Assembly (NCBI GenBank): GCA_006218025.1
Contig: VBWA01000003.1
Span: 1 to 64,000, forward strand
DNA length: 64,000 bases
DNA from: Rhodocyclaceae bacterium
Lineage (GTDB): Bacteria; Pseudomonadota; Gammaproteobacteria; Burkholderiales; Rhodocyclaceae
Reading direction: 5' to 3'
Below the pieces are notes generated by a model. That model had not been told where the DNA came from, ran no database searches, and saw only the letters and a list, made by a program, of their open reading frames with translations. Both the position numbers and the translations under genes were made by a program. Within the stretch, counting starts at the first letter, position 1, and the number at the start of each line of letters is the position of its first letter. Positions 5,890 to 61,621 of the stretch are shown here, piece after piece.

Positions 5890-6018
5890 TCAACTGAAAA
5901 CCGGGGAGCAAACCGTGTTTCTGTTGAATCGCCGTCTCGCTGGCGCCGACTCTTGTCGAAACCGGTAAAAGGAACTTCACCTTGAGACGTTCAGCGCAAA
6001 CCAAAGGACAACCCATTC

Positions 6019-6411
6019 TCACCCCCTGCTCCTGCTCGATTCGACCAGTTGAATCATCGCTGTGACGAAAGTGTCCGCCTGGTCGACAGCCCAGTCTGCA
6101 CTTTCTCGTGAAACAGCCTGCTCCGTGTAGTCGGCCGCCTGACGAATTTCGAACACCCGATTGAGTGCCTTGCCCAAGTCCACACGGACATGGCCGGGTT
6201 TCACGAGACGCAGGCCGAAGGCCGCTATAAGACCGCTGTGTGTTCTCGCCTCGGACGCGTCACCCGCCGATGCAAGCAACGCTGCTCGTGCTGCGTCGAA
6301 CATCGCGTAGTAGGCGCGATTGCACGCACCATCGACGTCGCCCGCATTCAGCAGAAGCCGGGCCGACGCTGCGGCGCGCGCCGCCTTGTCTAGAAAATCG
6401 GCGGCCTTCAC
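6019..6411 (-). CDS. HEPN-domain protein, partner of MNT nucleotidyltransferase
   Basis: This 130-residue alpha-helical protein has the HEPN-family helix NRAYYAMFDAARAAL (about residues 31-45) followed by an RTHSGLI segment, as in HEPN partners of minimal nucleotidyltransferases. In HEPN/MNT modules the HEPN protein is typically an RNase toxin or nucleotide-binding subunit, and the nucleotidyltransferase neutralises it. It overlaps the upstream MNT gene by 4 bases (ATGA), which implies translational coupling and a stable complex. No other insertion hallmarks such as IS ends are visible. Toxicity is inferred from the family. Confidence 0.85.
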   Translation of the reverse strand: MKAADFLDKAARAAASARLLLNAGDVDGACNRAYYAMFDAARAALLASAGDASEARTHSGLIAAFGLRLVKPGHVRVDLGKALNRVFEIRQAADYTEQAVSRESADWAVDQADTFVTAMIQLVESSRSRG

Positions 6412-6737
6412 AGGGTGATGCCCTCGCGTTGAATGTTCTCAAGCAGACGCGGATTTGAGTAAGCCTCCGGATGACTCCACTCTTCCTGCCAGATCGGTAG
6501 CGGCTGGATAAGGACGCCTGTTTCCAGCAGGACATCGAAGGCCATGTCAGCCATTTCCAGCTTGGTTTGCATGAAATCACCATGCGCTTCGCTGAGCACT
6601 ACCGCAACATCGGCATCGCTATCTGGACGCCCATCGCCACGCGCACGGCTACCGAACAAGATCAGTTTCGCCAAGGCGTGGCGAAGCGCTACCTTCTTGC
6701 TGAATGCATTGATAGCGCGATCCATAGCTGAACTCAT
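6408..6737 (-). CDS. MNT-type nucleotidyltransferase (antitoxin of HEPN/MNT pair)
   Basis: The product has the DNA polymerase beta-like nucleotidyltransferase signature LFGSRARGD followed by DSDADVAVVL, giving the GS and DxD catalytic residues. Characterised MntA antitoxins AMPylate or polyadenylate the HEPN toxin. The chosen start gives 109 residues. In-frame alternatives lie upstream at an ATG (6,776) and a TTG (6,800), and none has a convincing ribosome-binding site. The pair sits between tyrA and aroA-cmk on the same strand, an unusual place inside a conserved housekeeping cluster. Confidence 0.85.
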   Translation of the reverse strand: MSSAMDRAINAFSKKVALRHALAKLILFGSRARGDGRPDSDADVAVVLSEAHGDFMQTKLEMADMAFDVLLETGVLIQPLPIWQEEWSHPEAYSNPRLLENIQREGITL

Positions 6738-6932
6738 GACTGCTCTACCAGTTGTTGTCGCGGCAACAATATCCATCCTGTTATCCGATAATTTCGGCAA
6801 GCCGAACGGCCACCTGAGAAACTGCTTCTGCCGCCGTCGACTTGCCGATTAGACGATACTGGCCAACAGCACGGTTGCGACCTTCAGGCACGGCGGGCTC
6901 CCGAGGTGATGACAGACGCAATGATAGTCCTG

Positions 6933-7814
6933 CTACTCGCCCGGCGGCAACAGGGAATCCAGCCACGCGTCGCGTCGCGCGCGGGCTGTCGAAAACAGGG
7001 CTTCGAGGCCATCCGCATCGCCTCCGGCGAGCAGCACGCGGGTGCGCATCAGCTCGACCATGTAGGCATCGAGTTCCTGCAGCAGGGCATGGCGATTGGC
7101 GACGCAGATGTCGCGCCACATCTCCGGATGGCTGCTGGCGATGCGCGTGAAATCGCGAAAGCCGCCGGCAGCGAAACTGAACAGTTGATCGGCATTGTGG
7201 CGGCTGGAGAGGTCATGCACCAGGGCAAACGCCAGCAGATGCGGCAGGTGGCTCACCGCCGCAAAAACGCGATCGTGCTCGTCCGGCGCGAGTTGCGACA
7301 CCTTCGCGCCGCTGGCTTCCCAGGCTGCACGCACGCGAGCCACGGACTCCTGGGTGTTTTCCGGCAGGGGCGTGAGCACCACGCGCTTGTCGCGATAGAG
7401 GTCGGCCGTCGCCGCGCCCACACCGCTTTTCTCGGCGCCAGCAATCGGATGGCCGGGGACGAACTGGGCAATCTTCCCACCCAAGGCCGCACGCGCCGCC
7501 GCAACCACGTCGGACTTGGTGCTGCCGCCGTCGGTCACCAGCGTTTTCGGACCGAGATGCGGCGCCAGCGCTGCCATCACCGCCGGCATCTGCCCAACTG
7601 GCATGCCCAGCAGCACGAGATCGGCACCATCGAGGGCATCGGCCCAGTCGGTGGCAATCTGATCGATCACCCCTAGCTTCAGCGCCTCTTCCAGCGGTGC
7701 GCGGGTGCGGCCCATGCCGACCACTCGCCGTGCCGCCAGCGCCGACTTCTGCGCCAGTGCAAACGAGCCGCCGATCAGGCCGACGCCGCAGACGACTATC
7801 TTTTCAAATTGCAT
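6933..7814 (-). CDS. tyrA: Prephenate dehydrogenase (TyrA)
   Basis: This 293-residue enzyme has the N-terminal NAD(P)-binding motif GVGLIGGS (about residues 10-17), and GHPIAGAEKSG and SHLPHLLA further on. It oxidatively decarboxylates prephenate, or arogenate in some lineages, for tyrosine synthesis. No C-terminal ACT or chorismate mutase domain is present, so it is the short monofunctional form. It follows hisC after 3 bases. The 195 bases between its stop and the MNT start hold nothing I can identify and are where the foreign module joins the operon. Confidence 0.95.
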   Translation of the reverse strand: MQFEKIVVCGVGLIGGSFALAQKSALAARRVVGMGRTRAPLEEALKLGVIDQIATDWADALDGADLVLLGMPVGQMPAVMAALAPHLGPKTLVTDGGSTKSDVVAAARAALGGKIAQFVPGHPIAGAEKSGVGAATADLYRDKRVVLTPLPENTQESVARVRAAWEASGAKVSQLAPDEHDRVFAAVSHLPHLLAFALVHDLSSRHNADQLFSFAAGGFRDFTRIASSHPEMWRDICVANRHALLQELDAYMVELMRTRVLLAGGDADGLEALFSTARARRDAWLDSLLPPGE

Positions 7815-18628: not shown

Positions 18629-18990
18629 GGGGGCGACATGGCTTCGACATGGGTGACAAAGCATGCAGGGCATACCGAGGATCCGGGTACCTCGTAAATC
18701 CATCTGGAACGCACTAACTGCCAACGACGAGCGTTTCGCTCTAGCCGCTTAACAGCGGCTGGCTTCCGAACTGGTTTGCTTCTGGGCCAGGTAGCGCAAG
18801 CTACATCGGAATCATATACAGGAGATAAGGCTGTGCGGAGTCGCGATGCACAGTTCGAAAATCAAGCGAATCGTCTGCAACCAGCCTGTCCGTCGGCGTA
18901 TTGCGGGTTAAATCAAATGACGCGGCTAAGTATGTAGAACTGTATGTGGCGCACTTATGGACGCGGGTTCAATTCCCGCCGCCTCCACCA
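18629..18990 (+). ncRNA. ssrA: Transfer-messenger RNA (tmRNA)
   Basis: The 362-base RNA has a tRNA-like acceptor: GGGGGCG at the 5' end pairs with CGCCUCC before an encoded ACCA, and a T-arm GCGGGTTCAATTCCCGC lies at 18,964-18,980. The internal reading frame at 18,720-18,752 encodes the proteolysis tag ANDERFALAA and a TAA stop. tmRNA with SmpB rescues stalled ribosomes and tags the truncated product for degradation. The tag sequence is of betaproteobacterial type. The 3' end is a classical integration target, and element genes begin soon after it. Confidence 0.97.
18960..18990 (+). other. Probable attachment site of the ICE (3' end of ssrA)
   Basis: The change from housekeeping genes to accessory and conjugation genes occurs immediately after the ssrA 3' end, and many tyrosine-recombinase elements integrate at this segment and restore it. 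The core sequence and its second copy cannot be seen, because the other end of the element lies outside the window. The position is inferred from the junction only. Confidence 0.45.
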
Positions 18991-57329: not shown

Positions 57330-58178
57330 CTAGAATGGTTGTCCTGCAGCAAATCTCGCGCGCTGATACATGAATTGATCATACAACTGCCTGATCTCTG
57401 CCGTCGCCCCGATAGAACTGACCGTGTCTGCAAAGAGCGCGTAGTAAGCCAAAAACAATCGCTTGTCGCTCCTATATTTTCCAGTCCAGCAACTCGGTGG
57501 AAGACGAGAAAGGACCTCATTAAAAAGGAAATTATTAATAGTTTTGACTAATCCCGTAGAAATCCCTATCGCATTTTGTAGAGCGCTGTAGTTGAGTTGC
57601 AGCGGTTTCTCCAGCAACTCCTTATGGTCAGACAATCCGAGAAATATTGCATTTGAAACCCCTAGTTTTCCAAAGCGATGCACGGCGCAGTGCCTGAGTT
57701 GACATACCCGAGCATAATCTTCGATGGCAAGATCCAGTTCGGACGGCACCTTTCCTCTTATCGCTAACAACTCTCTCAATGTCTCCTCAATACTGGAACG
57801 CGTGATGAACGAAATCCGCTCGAGGATGGCTTCTGGCAACATTTCCTTCGAAAGATGAATCGCTGCACCGAAAGACACATCTCGTCTCTGCACGCTTTCC
57901 TGACAGATAAAATCGATCGCAATGAGTCGCCGGAATAGCGTCCTCAGATAACTTTCCACCGCCGCAATGACCCCAAGTAAGACCAATTGTCCCTGAAGCG
58001 GGTCAAAAGTATTCGGATGCGGTGACAGCCTGTTGATGGATTGCAGTCGCGTCAGAAATTCGTCAATAGCTGATTCAGTGGATTCCCGGTACGCGGCATT
58101 GAACAAAAGATGCGTATGCAAAATCGGACTCACTGGTGCGACACAAACCGTCAACTTGCAGCGAAAAATGGCAGCCAT
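57330..58178 (-). CDS. HEPN-motif protein, third gene of a methyltransferase-ATPase operon
   Basis: This 282-residue mainly helical protein has an early helix pair with LLGVIAAVESYLRTLFRRLI (about residues 67-86) and the R-x4-H motif RHCAVH at residues 162-167, the catalytic pattern of HEPN ribonucleases. It is the last gene of the three-gene operon, 5 bases after the ATPase. It probably is the RNase or tRNase effector. I recognise no named family, so the HEPN call rests on the motif and the helical pattern. Confidence 0.65.
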   Translation of the reverse strand: MAAIFRCKLTVCVAPVSPILHTHLLFNAAYRESTESAIDEFLTRLQSINRLSPHPNTFDPLQGQLVLLGVIAAVESYLRTLFRRLIAIDFICQESVQRRDVSFGAAIHLSKEMLPEAILERISFITRSSIEETLRELLAIRGKVPSELDLAIEDYARVCQLRHCAVHRFGKLGVSNAIFLGLSDHKELLEKPLQLNYSALQNAIGISTGLVKTINNFLFNEVLSRLPPSCWTGKYRSDKRLFLAYYALFADTVSSIGATAEIRQLYDQFMYQRARFAAGQPF

Positions 58179-58183
58179 GATTC

Positions 58184-59869
58184 TTAAGACAGAAACTCGT
58201 TGACGGTGAGTGTCACCTTCTTGATGATCCCCTCGGCTCTCACCGGGCCGACGTAGTTCGCTTGCTGAAGATCCCCAGAAGCATTCTGAGAAGCGAACAC
58301 GTGCCCAATGGTCCGAAGCTTCGTATCCGTGTGAATCCTGGTAATCAAAGCCTTACTAATATCTGGGATATCTTCTAACGGAAGCTTCATACACTCTTCA
58401 AACAACGAGGATGCGACAAGTTCCTCTCCGCATTGATGACAAAATTTCTGTGAATCATTGAGCCTTTGAGTTCCACAATTCTGGCATGGAGGAAGGTCAA
58501 GCCTCAGGCTCTGGATTTCCGCTGGAGTTAGCAACGTCGCCAAATCACGTCTAATCGGGTGTTTTGACGGTGGGCGCTGCATCAGTAGCGCCAAACTCCT
58601 CAGTGATGTTCCTTTTCCCTCTCTGAACGCACCTTGTTGATACAGAAAAGCGAGATGCGGAATGAATCGGTCATACTTGCGATTCGCGCCATGCGACACA
58701 GCTTGAAGGGGGAAAAGCAAGCCGACCTCGACAAGAAACCTCAGCATCCTGTCGGCCAATGGCGAGCGGTCGAGCTCCTGCCGCACGCCCAAGGTAATAT
58801 TCCGCGTCCTAACGTCGGTGCTCTGTGCCTCCGCAATATCGGTTACAGCTCTATCGAAAAGCTTCCTGCCGGTCACCACGAGCGAGGAAAATTGCTTGAG
58901 TTTCAGTCCCAAGGAATCGTACTCAGCACCAATCAACGCGGCCTGACGCTCAATGATCTTATTAATCTTTTGTTGAGACGTTCCGGGTTTTGAATCGAAA
59001 TACTCCCTCAAGAGTCGAAGAAAAACCCGAGGAATCCCGAAGGATACATACTTGAAAAGATCCAAGATGTCGGGATTGATCGTTGTCACCTCTTCGGGGG
59101 TCAGTCGGCGATTGGCGATATCGCCCATGATTTGGAGGTACTCGGCGTCCTCGATCGCGAGCCACAATGGCACCTCTTCCACCTCATGAGAGGCATGAAA
59201 TGTCGGACCATACTGCGTTGATCCCGGATACACCGATGCTTTTGGGGCAACATTGTCAGCCTTCAAGAGTCGGAATATTTCGAAAAAAGCGACGAGGTAC
59301 TGATCGGCCAGACTGAGCGCCGCATCGTCGAGCAGAAGTACGGCCCGTCCTCGGGAGAAAGTCTGAGTGAGTATTCGCACGGCCCTCAGAACGTGATCAA
59401 CCGTCAGATTCTGGCCGAACTCCTCGTACACTTCTGTTCCGCTTCCGCGCTCAAGGAGCGATACGAGTTCCCGTAGTTTTGCTTCGTCATACAGGGGGTC
59501 ATGCTTCGACAGACATGTTGAGTCAGCATTCAGGTCAGTCACGCATTCGAATGCGCTCAAGAGCAGCCTAGCGATCACCCACGAGTGAAATCGCTTTAGT
59601 GCGTCAGGGGATTTCTTGAGCAGAGGCTCAAGATTGAGATACCGGCTAAAGCTGGCATAGAGCGCAAGCGGGGCAGAAGGAGTTTTCAGGGCACGAAGGT
59701 AGGTATATCGCATGACGTGCGTTTTGCCCGTCCCGCGGGGTCCCACAAGCAGCTTCGCCCCTGGGGCCAGCAGCTTCTGTCTGGCCCTCTTGAAGATCTG
59801 CCCGTCCGCCAAGGAAGCATCAATTGCCTCAAGTGAAAGTTGATCCGCGCGTTCCTCAAATTCAGGCAT
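58184..59869 (-). CDS. AAA/STAND-like ATPase with zinc ribbon and HhH tail
   Basis: This 561-residue P-loop ATPase has Walker A LVGPRGTGKTHVMRY at residues 41-55 and Walker B AVLLLDDAAL near 180, an ORC/Cdc6-like helical region, a zinc ribbon CQNC...CHQC near residues 462-482, and a C-terminal helix-hairpin-helix-like segment with LRTIGHVFA and YVGPVRAEG. It probably reads DNA or nucleoprotein state and couples it to the HEPN partner. It lies 34 bases downstream of the methyltransferase. Confidence 0.75.
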   Translation of the reverse strand: MPEFEERADQLSLEAIDASLADGQIFKRARQKLLAPGAKLLVGPRGTGKTHVMRYTYLRALKTPSAPLALYASFSRYLNLEPLLKKSPDALKRFHSWVIARLLLSAFECVTDLNADSTCLSKHDPLYDEAKLRELVSLLERGSGTEVYEEFGQNLTVDHVLRAVRILTQTFSRGRAVLLLDDAALSLADQYLVAFFEIFRLLKADNVAPKASVYPGSTQYGPTFHASHEVEEVPLWLAIEDAEYLQIMGDIANRRLTPEEVTTINPDILDLFKYVSFGIPRVFLRLLREYFDSKPGTSQQKINKIIERQAALIGAEYDSLGLKLKQFSSLVVTGRKLFDRAVTDIAEAQSTDVRTRNITLGVRQELDRSPLADRMLRFLVEVGLLFPLQAVSHGANRKYDRFIPHLAFLYQQGAFREGKGTSLRSLALLMQRPPSKHPIRRDLATLLTPAEIQSLRLDLPPCQNCGTQRLNDSQKFCHQCGEELVASSLFEECMKLPLEDIPDISKALITRIHTDTKLRTIGHVFASQNASGDLQQANYVGPVRAEGIIKKVTLTVNEFLS

Positions 59870-59903
59870 ATGCCAGAGTCCTCGAAATGACCTCAGTAAG
59901 ATG

Positions 59904-61157
59904 TCAAAGACAAAGCGGGAAAGTCAGCAGGTCAGCCTTGGTGAGTTGTTTCGCACCGACACCATATGCTCTTGAGGCCAACCAAGCCTGCCCATCGGCA
60001 CAGCTCAACTGAGCCAGGACGCGGTCGCGATAATGTTCTGGCACCTGAATCCTGTATACGCAATCGGTGAGAAAAGGAGACCCCTTAAGGACGCCCAGAA
60101 CCTTTCGTTCAAGGTTTCGGCCAACCCGAGCCACCAAAATGTCCCCTGGCTGAGCTCGAATGACTCCATCCAACTCTCCAGAGACTTGACTGAAACGGCC
60201 TAGATCACACCATTCGCCGGAAAGCGATAGGCTCATGTCCGAAGTGTGGAATATGGGGACGTCTCCCGCCCGAGCTTCCGAACTAGAAACGGAGCCCCGC
60301 TTCAACTCACTGACGATAGATCCAAGGACTGCCGGTTCTCTGCCTAACCGAGATCCTTTCAGTCGTTGCGCATGGTAATCGAAGTCCAGCCGGGTTACTG
60401 CCTCATCAATATCAACGAGCAATTCTGGCTCTAGTTCACGTCCGTCGCGAAGCTTCGACAGCTTAATCGTTGTCTCCGTCGAACTACCCTTGCTAATGAT
60501 GACGATGGACGCCAAGGCATCAGTCCCCGAAAACGATCCGCGTGGTAGTCGAATCGCCTTGTGGACCTTGTAACGCTGCAGTAATTCTTTACGGAATCGC
60601 CGGTACCTCGTGGCTGATATGAGGCTATCCGGCAAAATGATACCCAGCGTTGCCTGATTGCTAAGTAGGCGCAGGTTTTGGGCCAAGAACAACAGGGCAG
60701 CATCTACGTCGCCCACGACAGGGATACACCCACTGAACCCAGTCTCCTCCAAAATTTGAGCGAATCCTTTTCGCCATTTCGGAACAATGAAGGGTGGATT
60801 GCAGACCGCAGTGTCGATTTGATCAACCTTAGCGAAGATCAAGTCCGGCAACCGGTCAGAGAGCGCATCCGCCTGAATGTGTCTGTGCTTGAAACTACCT
60901 TCACCACCGAAACACTTTATCAAGCGTGCCGATACTGCTCGATCGATGTCGACCGTGAGAACTTCAATACCCGACCACCGGTTGATAGCCGCACTCGACA
61001 GAGACCCGCCACCGGCACCAAGGTCAAGCAAGCGGCTCGGCGTATGGTTCGCCATTTGGTCGATCAGCAAGTGCCCAATATCTGCTTTCGTATAGTAGCG
61101 CCCCAGTCTATCTGGACCTATTTGCCTACCGGGATCTGACATTCTGACCTGTACCAT
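59904..61157 (-). CDS. Adenine-N6 DNA methyltransferase with type I-like recognition domain
   Basis: This 417-residue protein has an N-terminal SAM-binding domain (LLDLGAGGGSLS near residue 43) and the catalytic motif NPPF at residues 120-123, typical of N6-adenine methyltransferases. Its C-terminal third has type I specificity-like text QPGDILVARVGRNLERK and LTDCVYRIQVP. No restriction endonuclease is linked; instead an ATPase and a HEPN protein follow in the same operon. The start is MVQVRM, with an alternative ATG five codons in. Confidence 0.85.
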   Translation of the reverse strand: MVQVRMSDPGRQIGPDRLGRYYTKADIGHLLIDQMANHTPSRLLDLGAGGGSLSSAAINRWSGIEVLTVDIDRAVSARLIKCFGGEGSFKHRHIQADALSDRLPDLIFAKVDQIDTAVCNPPFIVPKWRKGFAQILEETGFSGCIPVVGDVDAALLFLAQNLRLLSNQATLGIILPDSLISATRYRRFRKELLQRYKVHKAIRLPRGSFSGTDALASIVIISKGSSTETTIKLSKLRDGRELEPELLVDIDEAVTRLDFDYHAQRLKGSRLGREPAVLGSIVSELKRGSVSSSEARAGDVPIFHTSDMSLSLSGEWCDLGRFSQVSGELDGVIRAQPGDILVARVGRNLERKVLGVLKGSPFLTDCVYRIQVPEHYRDRVLAQLSCADGQAWLASRAYGVGAKQLTKADLLTFPLCL

Positions 61158-61402: not shown

Positions 61403-61621
61403 TTACTTCACCGCCTCCGCCAGATCCTTGCCTGTCACCTTTCCTGAGCGATGAAGCCACAACAAGATAGCAAGTGGCTTCGGAATATTGCGGCCGGATT
61501 CGTAGCGGGAGCCGCCCGACTGGGTGACGCCGTACCGTTTCCAGAAATCCTTCTGATTGAGGTTCTCTTTCTTGCGAGTAGTCGAGATGTCGGAAAAATC
61601 GAGCTTTTTCTTGCGGGCCAT
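61403..61621 (-). CDS. Small XRE-like DNA-binding protein (paralogue of 40,809 gene)
   Basis: This 72-residue protein has LNQKDFWKRYGVTQSGGSRYES and GRNIPKPL, almost identical in its helix-turn-helix to the protein at 40,809-41,036. It lies immediately upstream of the DUF3820 frame and downstream of a 15-base inverted repeat at 61,663-61,677, a possible operator. It probably regulates nearby element genes. Confidence 0.8.
   Translation of the reverse strand: MARKKKLDFSDISTTRKKENLNQKDFWKRYGVTQSGGSRYESGRNIPKPLAILLWLHRSGKVTGKDLAEAVK

Follow-up and report, generated by a model that had tools for sequence, protein, structure and literature searches.

A conserved adenine methyltransferase, zinc-ribbon ATPase and HEPN-like protein that look like an undescribed defence system

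What might an adenine methyltransferase do beside an ATPase and a putative RNase, when no restriction nuclease is encoded with them? The question is raised by three minus-strand ORFs in a 64,000-nucleotide stretch of a Rhodocyclaceae contig (VBWA01000003.1, positions 1 to 64,000; hereafter the window), which encode, in order of transcription, a methyltransferase (MTase, 417 aa), an ATPase (561 aa) and a HEPN-like protein (282 aa). The ORF coordinates leave 34 nt between the MTase and ATPase genes and 5 nt between the ATPase and HEPN genes, as a sequence-only reading of this DNA had reported. That reading also described the genes as less GC-rich than the tra genes around them, and their GC content is indeed 0.479 (HEPN), 0.524 (ATPase) and 0.534 (MTase) versus 0.571-0.606 for the TraE, TraD and TraL genes, with third-position values of 0.51-0.58 versus 0.72-0.82; an OmpA-like neighbour is intermediate (GC 0.569, third-position GC 0.615). 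The window copy sits amid conjugation genes, and the trio is carried by a mobile element. An HTH gene (61403-61621), considered as a controller, was omitted from the cassette because, across the ORFs of all gathered loci, it matched nothing but itself.

The MTase (59904..61157, minus strand) was assigned by Pfam, PADLOC and motifs. It matches Pfam N6_Mtase above cut-off (4e-11) and the PADLOC MTase_II model PDLC03285 with nearly the full length covered (2.2e-72), and possesses both the SAM motif I and the NPP(F/Y/W) motif IV of N6-adenine DNA methyltransferases, the latter as NPPF at residues 120-123. Motif I residues G49 and G51 are kept in 64 of 65 MTase relatives and NPPF/Y in as many, the exception to NPPF/Y being the truncated L042. 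The NPPF methyltransferase named from the letters alone is therefore borne out by profile and motif; as for the type I-like recognition region attributed to it, the C-terminal recognition half is GDILVAR-type, and a profile showed its likeness to a specificity subunit in just one case, that of a Klebsiella relative (NCBIfam MADS5, 3.4e-5, far under cut-off).

The ATPase (58184..59869, minus strand), characterised through Pfam, motifs and an AF2 model, matches Pfam ORC-CDC6-like (9.8e-8) and displays the P-loop motifs and the GxP/sensor-2-type motif of ORC/CDC6-STAND ATPases: a Walker A of GPRGTGKT, LLLDDAA, and a G-x-P-R which we take to be GxP/sensor 2. Its zinc-ribbon cysteines are C462, C465, C477 and C480. 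GPRGxGK, DDAA, G278-P280-R281 and the four cysteines are invariant in 75/75 rows of alignment A7, and the cysteines are nearly invariant in the 80-row alignment A5, which takes in the remote locus L007. When compared with solved structures, the AF2 model (pLDDT 89.7) shows the ORC/CDC6-STAND fold, and the protein is, as modelled, a member of this group with a zinc ribbon. The P-loop ATPase and zinc ribbon noticed earlier thus stand, while the HhH-like tail noticed with them finds a weak match to the RNA polymerase alpha CTD (E 0.28).

The third protein (57330..58178, minus strand) was examined through its motif, an AF2 model and VIA. The R-x4-6-H signature of the HEPN superfamily occurs as RHCAVH at residues 162-167, and R-H-x3-H (R162, H163, H167), together with E75, R79 and N215, is invariant in all 90 third proteins that reach 220 aa, within an alignment of 94 rows; the model is nearly all-helical (pLDDT 96.3), in agreement with the helical R-x4-H protein first described. 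HEPN structures were the top solved matches of this model, at moderate Z, occupying five of the best six VIA rows (HepT, 7.7 and 7.3; YutE, 6.8; Csm6, 6.1; HI0074, 5.8); the remaining row is LGN (6.5). Foldseek returned no match for the model at E<=0.001, and Pfam HEPN_RiboL-PSP matches 12 of 74 family members (best 3.5e-4), the window protein not among them. For the HEPN identity claimed at the outset, the motif is confirmed and the fold is suggestive, not decisive; the protein probably has a HEPN fold, and motif and modelled fold together predict that it is likely an RNase.

Whether these genes belong together was addressed through 99 loci gathered with the ATPase, a set that lies apart from the window's own copy (L001) and L002; the genome scan took in 80 of 83 confirmed relatives, and several virus records nearly duplicate one another or bacterial loci. 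A HEPN gene is present in 93 of the loci and an MTase in 65, and the next commonest neighbour family (439 aa) in 13. This 439-aa family, for which no PDB match was found, looks by eye like a tyrosine integrase. Among the six loci without a HEPN match, L080, L081, L085 and L087 end at a contig edge, L057 has a broken ATPase frame and L007 is remote. Pair and trio recur across phyla and in unrelated genomes, including plasmids and virus records, with gene abutment kept and flanks differing; since gene starts were set at the first ATG/GTG/TTG, some gene overlaps are artefactual. Reverse scans of virus records found the ATPase directly upstream in 11/11 HEPN matches and both partners beside 7/9 MTase matches. 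Against these counts, it is scarcely credible that an orphan MTase came by accident to lie next to an unrelated ATPase and a helical protein, and the trio is a conserved cassette. Within the class, the ATPase was found in 2 of 369 genomes, the window's own and L002, where a 75-residue C-terminal ATPase match adjoins a 92-aa HEPN-profile match; the HEPN profile was found in 3 of 398 genomes of the phylum, one hit being weak and without an ATPase on its 2.6-kb locus, and 5 of 61 relatives matched the ATPase profile, the window's own being the sole full-length member. The trio had no blastn match in E. coli genomes, and the ATPase had no match in phage records by tblastn.

The claim of a conserved three-gene set holds and can be extended. 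In the ATPase tree, which omits the near-copies L001, L011, L088, L090, L092 and L096 as well as eight loci whose ATPase frames fall below 450 aa, the MTase accompanies 55/57 rows of one clade and 0/30 of the remaining rows, so the ATPase-HEPN pair, often without an adjacent MTase, constitutes the wider core. Many of the clade-2 pairs, which lack the MTase, stand alone, and some adjoin other DNA-modification systems (of 148 clade-2 neighbours, 134 were covered by the main model scan and 6 + 1 by separate scans, 7 falling outside). In L086, 30 nt separate the pair from a preceding 1213-aa Eco57I-type MTase, which itself follows BrxC; L071 shows a similar order, as does L081 within the limits of its contig. 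The pair of L060 comes after type III Mod and Res, and that of L079 after type II MTases and an Eco29kI REase. Positions beside BREX-like, type II and type III genes are where a guard would be expected, and these, like the pairs that stand alone, favour a self-sufficient two-gene abortive-infection module, in which the ATPase would restrain the RNase until a phage cue or the disarming of a nearby defence system sets it free, in the manner of PrrC or PARIS, the MTase being a helpful companion in one clade and not the gate. The presence of HEPN in 93/99 loci against the MTase in only 65 agrees with this, as do L023 and L025, which belong to the same clade as the trio yet lack the MTase and argue against its being strictly required; L023 has another gene 5' of the ATPase in the neighbour table and was counted as an exception. 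We nevertheless consider such a module rather unlikely, as a dispensable companion would hardly be kept in 55/57 rows through changes of gene order (5' on the same strand in 55 of the 65 loci, 3' on the same strand in 7, 5' and divergent in 3), and members of the MTase family are also found with another cassette, whose ATPase is related.

Another reading joins MTase and ATPase as one DNA-scanning complex comparable to BREX or type I enzymes, with the MTase lending sequence recognition directly and HEPN acting as effector of the stalled complex. Pairwise distances over 55 loci correlate for ATPase and MTase (r=0.66, against a maximum of 0.13 in 1000 permutations), for HEPN and MTase (0.68) and for ATPase and HEPN (0.90). 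That the MTase tracks the ATPase less closely than HEPN does, along with its absence from clade 2, makes a scanning complex improbable.

No restriction nuclease is encoded by the trio according to Pfam, PADLOC and NCBIfam models, as the sequence-only reading had stated. As part of the wider set, a restriction nuclease was sought and none found: flanks vary from locus to locus, no further neighbour family occurs in more than 13/99 loci, and the model scans covered few neighbours of the MTase-bearing loci, where a nuclease confined to a single locus may exist. We give about an even chance to a restriction-like defence cassette which lacks its own DNA nuclease, its mechanism being drawn from families, motifs and predicted folds. 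In favour of this reading are the recurrence of pair and trio with varying flanks, the retention of the MTase in one ATPase clade despite its shifts of position, the correlated distances, the intact motifs, the clade-2 pairs that adjoin other DNA-modification systems and, as described below, the exchange of modules with a second cassette and a virus record with the MTase alone. The MTase, judging by its family and intact motifs, would methylate a target sequence on resident DNA and thereby mark self. The ATPase, which has the zinc ribbon and a tail that may bind DNA, may sense unmodified or foreign DNA and switch state with ATP; this change would activate the partner HEPN protein, which might cut cellular or phage RNA, perhaps tRNA, stopping the infected cell before phage is made, whereas methylation of self would prevent the switch from being thrown. 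When carried by a mobile element, the cassette would in the same way keep out rival elements and punish its own loss. Compatible with this preferred reading, although very improbable as the main explanation, is selection for element retention over phage defence, with the MTase as epigenetic antitoxin and HEPN as toxin: the window copy lies among conjugation genes, other copies are on plasmids and in virus records, and the family resembling tyrosine integrases by eye adjoins 13/99 loci, but defence is indicated by the clade-2 copies that adjoin R-M and BREX-like genes.

The trio's MTase family also accompanies a second cassette, consisting of PRTase-CE, an ORC-CDC6-like ATPase and a ~310-aa protein (L142, L143, L147, L168), and six loci combine the two cassettes with a single MTase. 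Identity to the nearest HEPN-coupled MTases is 66-68% for the L143 enzyme and 52-58% for that of L142; the two nest among these relatives with supports of 93/99 and 100/97, respectively, in a tree which leaves out rows <330 aa and near-copies and in which L147, L168 and others are long-branched. Profile comparison shows the ATPases of the two cassettes to be related (probability 94.7, E 5.8e-8, 105 columns), and neither the zinc-ribbon ATPase nor HEPN was matched in the four loci at 1e-4. The ~310-aa protein was considered as a hidden HEPN, but its profile reached a probability of only 1 and this candidate was rejected. A 37.9-kb virus record bears an MTase that shares 72% identity with two trio MTases, and neither the ATPase nor HEPN has a match on the same record; in phage records, the L136 MTase found three remote matches (23-24% identity), and a PRTase-CE query by tblastn none. 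MTase and ATPase-effector pair are separable modules. Tentatively, and at somewhat less than an even chance, we propose a general class of immunity, methylation-licensed and free of DNA nucleases, in which one self-marking adenine MTase family would serve interchangeable ORC/CDC6-STAND sensor cassettes with different suicidal effectors (HEPN RNase, PRTase-CE), sometimes two, and phages would answer with the MTase alone.

The trio has the look of a defence system not yet described, one that would detect DNA without the mark and shut the cell down rather than cut the invader's DNA. If this is true, an RNase governed by an NLR-like switch would do the work of restriction and DNA methylation would serve only as the off signal, which would join R-M with STAND and abortive-infection biology. 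Some "orphan" methylases on plasmids and prophages would be explained, and a partner would be named for the PRTase-CE cassette, which, judged by its ATPase, occurs in some 140 enterobacterial plasmid records.

None of the three outcomes named beforehand as adverse (identity with a named system, lack of conservation, lack of a HEPN fold) arose, the fold test being only suggestive. The model libraries and literature searched gave no match to a named system, and in the article text covered (PMC13092281, PMC12839542, PMC10853773, PMC3710099, PMC9122126, PMC7159879; figures, supplements and most preprints outside this scope) neither the trio nor the MTase and PRTase-CE set is described. That the set was not recognised as BREX or MADS is borne out by scans of the trio and six neighbours; as for DISARM, no drmA, drmB, drmC or drmM model occurs among the PADLOC matches listed for the trio and the HTH gene, the best 25 of 40 for the MTase. 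MADS matches are at superfamily level only: PADLOC relates the MTase to mad2 (9.7e-16) and the ATPase to mad8 (1.8e-4), NCBIfam MAD2 gives the MTase 19 bits against 720, and no other model of the mad1-mad8 set is listed for the trio and six neighbours. DS-41, a DefensePredictor system (PMC13092281; NCBIfam NF053860), has remote ATPase similarity to 36/75 members (best 7.8e-7, under the curated cut-off); L101, the sole locus over the DS-41 cut-off, is however unmatched by the trio ATPase, HEPN and MTase profiles at 1e-3, and identity with DS-41 was rejected. A relative could be hidden among the DefensePredictor operons.

Several known systems share parts of this architecture. PARIS, given in PMC9122126 as an AriA ATPase with an AriB DUF4435 effector, likewise pairs an ATPase sensor with a separate toxic effector, but has no MTase, and its ATPase and effector families differ from ours by name. 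PrrC and RloC, ABC ATPase-HEPN fusion nucleases associated with R-M systems (PMC3710099), share an ATPase-controlled HEPN RNase coupled to DNA modification, whereas the trio's ATPase is ORC/CDC6-STAND-like and separately encoded, and the trio has no DNA nuclease. BREX offers an ORC/CDC6-type ATPase, BrxC, with an adenine MTase, and a BREX-like operon can include a clade-2 pair; no NCBIfam BREX model, including BrxC/PglY and PglZ, scored above cut-off in the trio and six window neighbours. The BREX-related Type-1 systems (BR/Hma), which PMC12839542 describes as a DUF499 ORC/CDC6 ATPase, N6-MTase, helicase and HEPN often fused to the ATPase, resemble the trio in combining an N6-MTase, an ORC/CDC6-group ATPase and a HEPN RNase; the trio, by contrast, has no helicase among its three genes, a separate HEPN gene and an ATPase with a zinc ribbon and no DUF499 match at E<=1. 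The PRTase-CE/ORC-CDC6-like cassette (Pfam PF24390, PF24389) has the MTase family in common with the trio, a related ATPase and a similar operon make-up, but carries PRTase-CE and the ~310-aa protein in place of HEPN, and its ATPase is strongly diverged.

The trio lies on the minus strand of the window, where the genes for the methyltransferase (MTase, 61157-59904), the ATPase (59869-58184) and the third, HEPN-like protein (58178-57330) are separated by gaps of 34 and 5 nt, as the sequence-only reading had described. It is flanked on one side by an SXT-type TraD (4.3e-169) and a DUF4400 protein, and on the other by TraL and TraE, at what is probably the s043-traL site, a hotspot for insertions in SXT-type elements. 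The lower GC content previously noticed relative to the tra genes was clearest at third codon positions (0.51-0.58 vs 0.72-0.82). Just upstream, a gene encoding a 72-aa RsaL-like HTH protein (61403-61621; HTH_92, 8.6e-25) had no homologous ORF at any other locus collected. A tmRNA gene (18629-18990, tag ANDERFALAA) was also recorded in the window.

Annotated neighbourhoods presented the order MTase, ATPase and third gene in Cupriavidus necator, Rhizobium phaseoli and R. leguminosarum, and only the latter two genes in Limimaricola, and tblastn located the ATPase on five plasmids of other genera. Genome and virus collections scanned with an alignment of five ATPases yielded at least 80 and at least 13 loci, respectively, and the resulting locus set (n = 99) comprised 80 genome, 13 virus and five plasmid loci together with the window. 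The trio is a conserved set, as had been anticipated: third-protein profile matches occurred in 93 of the 99 loci and MTase profile matches in 65 (75 and 51 of the genome loci, 13 and 10 of the virus loci, 4 and 3 of the plasmid loci), the next commonest neighbour family, an integrase by eye, being found in 13/99. Both proteins were of sufficient length at 89 loci; in 70 of these, the start of the third gene lay between -8 and +9 nt relative to the end of the ATPase gene, with overlaps of 4 nt in 30 and of 1 nt in 10. Reverse scans of virus records, which mostly recover previously found records and hence serve as a test of exceptions rather than fresh sampling, retrieved 11 loci with the third protein, all with the ATPase directly upstream, and 9 with the MTase, 7 of which had both partners. 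Piscirickettsia salmonis plasmids (hits H10-H45 and H51-H75) gave partial matches only, which covered the HEPN query over 42-51% of its length and an ATPase query over 18-26%, and the two Pseudomonas bharatica copies (L068, L083) had broken ATPase and HEPN frames and MTase frames of 441 and 408 aa.

The assignment of the first gene as an N6-adenine MTase with an NPPF motif was borne out by its relatives, motif I and NPPF/Y being intact in 64 of 65, the exception being a truncated protein; in the C-terminal half, most rows carried a GDIL-x-(A/S)R-type motif (D339 in 62/65, R344 in 63/65). The third protein, proposed earlier to be HEPN, is likely to be one, though the fold is not proven, based on motif, predicted fold and partial Pfam matches. 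Residues R162, H163, H167, E75, R79 and N215 were invariant in all 90 third proteins of at least 220 aa, and Pfam HEPN_RiboL-PSP was matched by 12 of 74 members (best 3.5e-4), NCBIfam by none of the 74; the window protein itself had no convincing match in Pfam, PADLOC or NCBIfam. Its structure model was nearly all-helical (pLDDT 96.3), and Foldseek returned no solved match at E<=0.001. Five of the top six VIA rows for the model were HEPN proteins, namely HepT (6m6w 7.7, 6m6u 7.3), YutE (6.8), Csm6 (6.1) and HI0074 (5.8); helical proteins unrelated to them scored 5-6.5, interspersed with these rows and further down.

In the ATPase tree (87 rows), one clade with support 99 united 55 MTase-bearing and two MTase-less rows (L023, L025), and the MTase was absent from the remaining 29 rows and from the remote L007. 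Across 55 loci, pairwise ATPase distances correlated with those of HEPN at 0.90 and with those of the MTase at 0.66, and HEPN with MTase distances at 0.68; 1000 permutations of the ATPase-MTase comparison gave a maximum of 0.13. Tree distribution and distance correlations therefore identify the ATPase-HEPN pair as the wider core and the MTase as the stable partner of one clade, its gene lying upstream in the same orientation in 55 of 65 loci, downstream in seven and divergently in three. Eighteen genomes, 16 of the MTase-less part of the tree (clade 2) and those of L023 and L025, were without a close MTase-family member, the partial matches in four genomes falling within frames of 472-617 aa; the pair can thus occur without an MTase of the trio family.

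Clade-2 contexts were diverse. In a Lachnospiraceae locus (L086, 2487-12417), a gap of 30 nt separates the pair from a preceding 1213-aa Eco57I-type MTase; this MTase comes after BrxC and is read as PglX in a BREX-like operon. Homologues of both proteins occurred in L071, where a stretch holding a 411-aa ORF displaces the HEPN frame by ~1.7 kb, and a homologue of the MTase in L081, whose contig ends inside the ATPase gene. The pair followed type III Mod and Res in an Omnitrophota genome, and two MTases (Eco57I-type and C5) plus an Eco29kI REase on a Puniceicoccaceae contig; 24 other clade-2 loci had mixed neighbours with few MTases (134/148 proteins scanned). Loci of the pair without MTase favour the main rival explanation, namely that the pair is a self-sufficient guard. 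Conservation, correlated divergence, intact motifs, predicted folds and a module swap are what the comparisons show; under the inferred methylation-gated reading, the MTase would mark self, the ATPase would read DNA or infection, and the HEPN protein would cut RNA, arresting the cell; the two readings differ in the effect of MTase loss.

The best argument for methylation as the common input is a module swap. Six loci (L024, L026, L029, L033, L037, L056) combine one MTase and the pair with three further genes, encoding PRTase-CE (PF24390), an ORC-CDC6-like ATPase (PF24389; E-values in L033 of 6e-47 and 2.8e-95) and a ~310-aa protein with no Pfam match. The MTase accompanies this PRTase cassette in Cupriavidus basilensis (L143), Klebsiella pKPHS2 (L147), Diaphorobacter (L168) and a virus record (L142), where neither HEPN nor the zinc-ribbon ATPase was matched at a threshold of 1e-4. 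The L143 and L142 MTases, 66-68% and 52-58% identical to the nearest HEPN-coupled MTases, nest among these (supports 93/99 and 100/97), those of L147 and L168 form long branches of unsure placement, and the PRTase-only group needs two or more label changes, given the well-supported branches. One MTase family therefore accompanies two ATPase-effector cassettes. A profile comparison (E 5.8e-8, 105 columns) relates the ATPases of the two cassettes, which have an RA(E/D) segment and the Walker A region in common. Plasmid searches matched the window MTase in 148 records (129 Klebsiella; 27% identity among the matches listed) and the PRTase-cassette ATPase in 148 (130 Klebsiella); no paper on the cassette was found in the literature searched. 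Elsewhere in the window's own genome, a PRTase-CE domain (contig C12, 1.5e-12) lies on a 3.5-kb locus (L165) with no ORC-CDC6-like or MTase match.

Neither cassette occurred within 13 kb of the MTases of L144 and L145. In the latter, a Bosea plasmid (7228-9034), an MTase of the same family (31% identity) precedes two genes whose 225- and 372-aa products have no Pfam match, perhaps a third effector cassette. On a 37.9-kb virus record, possibly a fragment (L136), an MTase (5971-7188) 72% identical to the trio MTases of L049 and L050 lies near endolysin-like and single-strand binding protein-like genes (by eye); the record holds neither an ATPase nor a HEPN match. Phage self-protection by the mark, possibly as a counter-defence gene, would fit, and a remnant of a lost cassette is equally possible. 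Annotated phage records held three remote MTase relatives only.

Outside the family, the ATPase-HEPN partnership ends: no HEPN match lay near the remote ATPases of L007, L169 (501 aa, 1.2e-37 to the trio ATPase profile) or L170 (2e-11). The odds of the methylation-gated reading are slightly lowered, since remote ATPases have other partners and some neighbours lay outside the scan. In L169 (5075-7509), from another genus of the window's family, the ATPase overlaps an uncharacterised upstream 310-aa gene, perhaps another partner set. The HEPN-less homologue on a Planktothrix plasmid (L007, 5989-7602; 23% identity) neighbours, by annotation, a PAPS reductase, a DUF4007 protein and a DEAD/DEAH helicase, a phosphorothioation-like neighbourhood.

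No name for the trio appeared in the model libraries or literature searched, and its earlier separation from BREX, MADS and standard restriction systems stands, as the defining features of BREX, MADS and classical R-M were absent among the proteins scanned. Its logic resembles that of PrrC/RloC, whose defining ABC ATPase fusion is absent here (PMC3710099), and that of the HEPN-bearing BR type 1 (Hma) systems, which differ from the trio in their DUF499 ATPase with helicase (PMC12839542).
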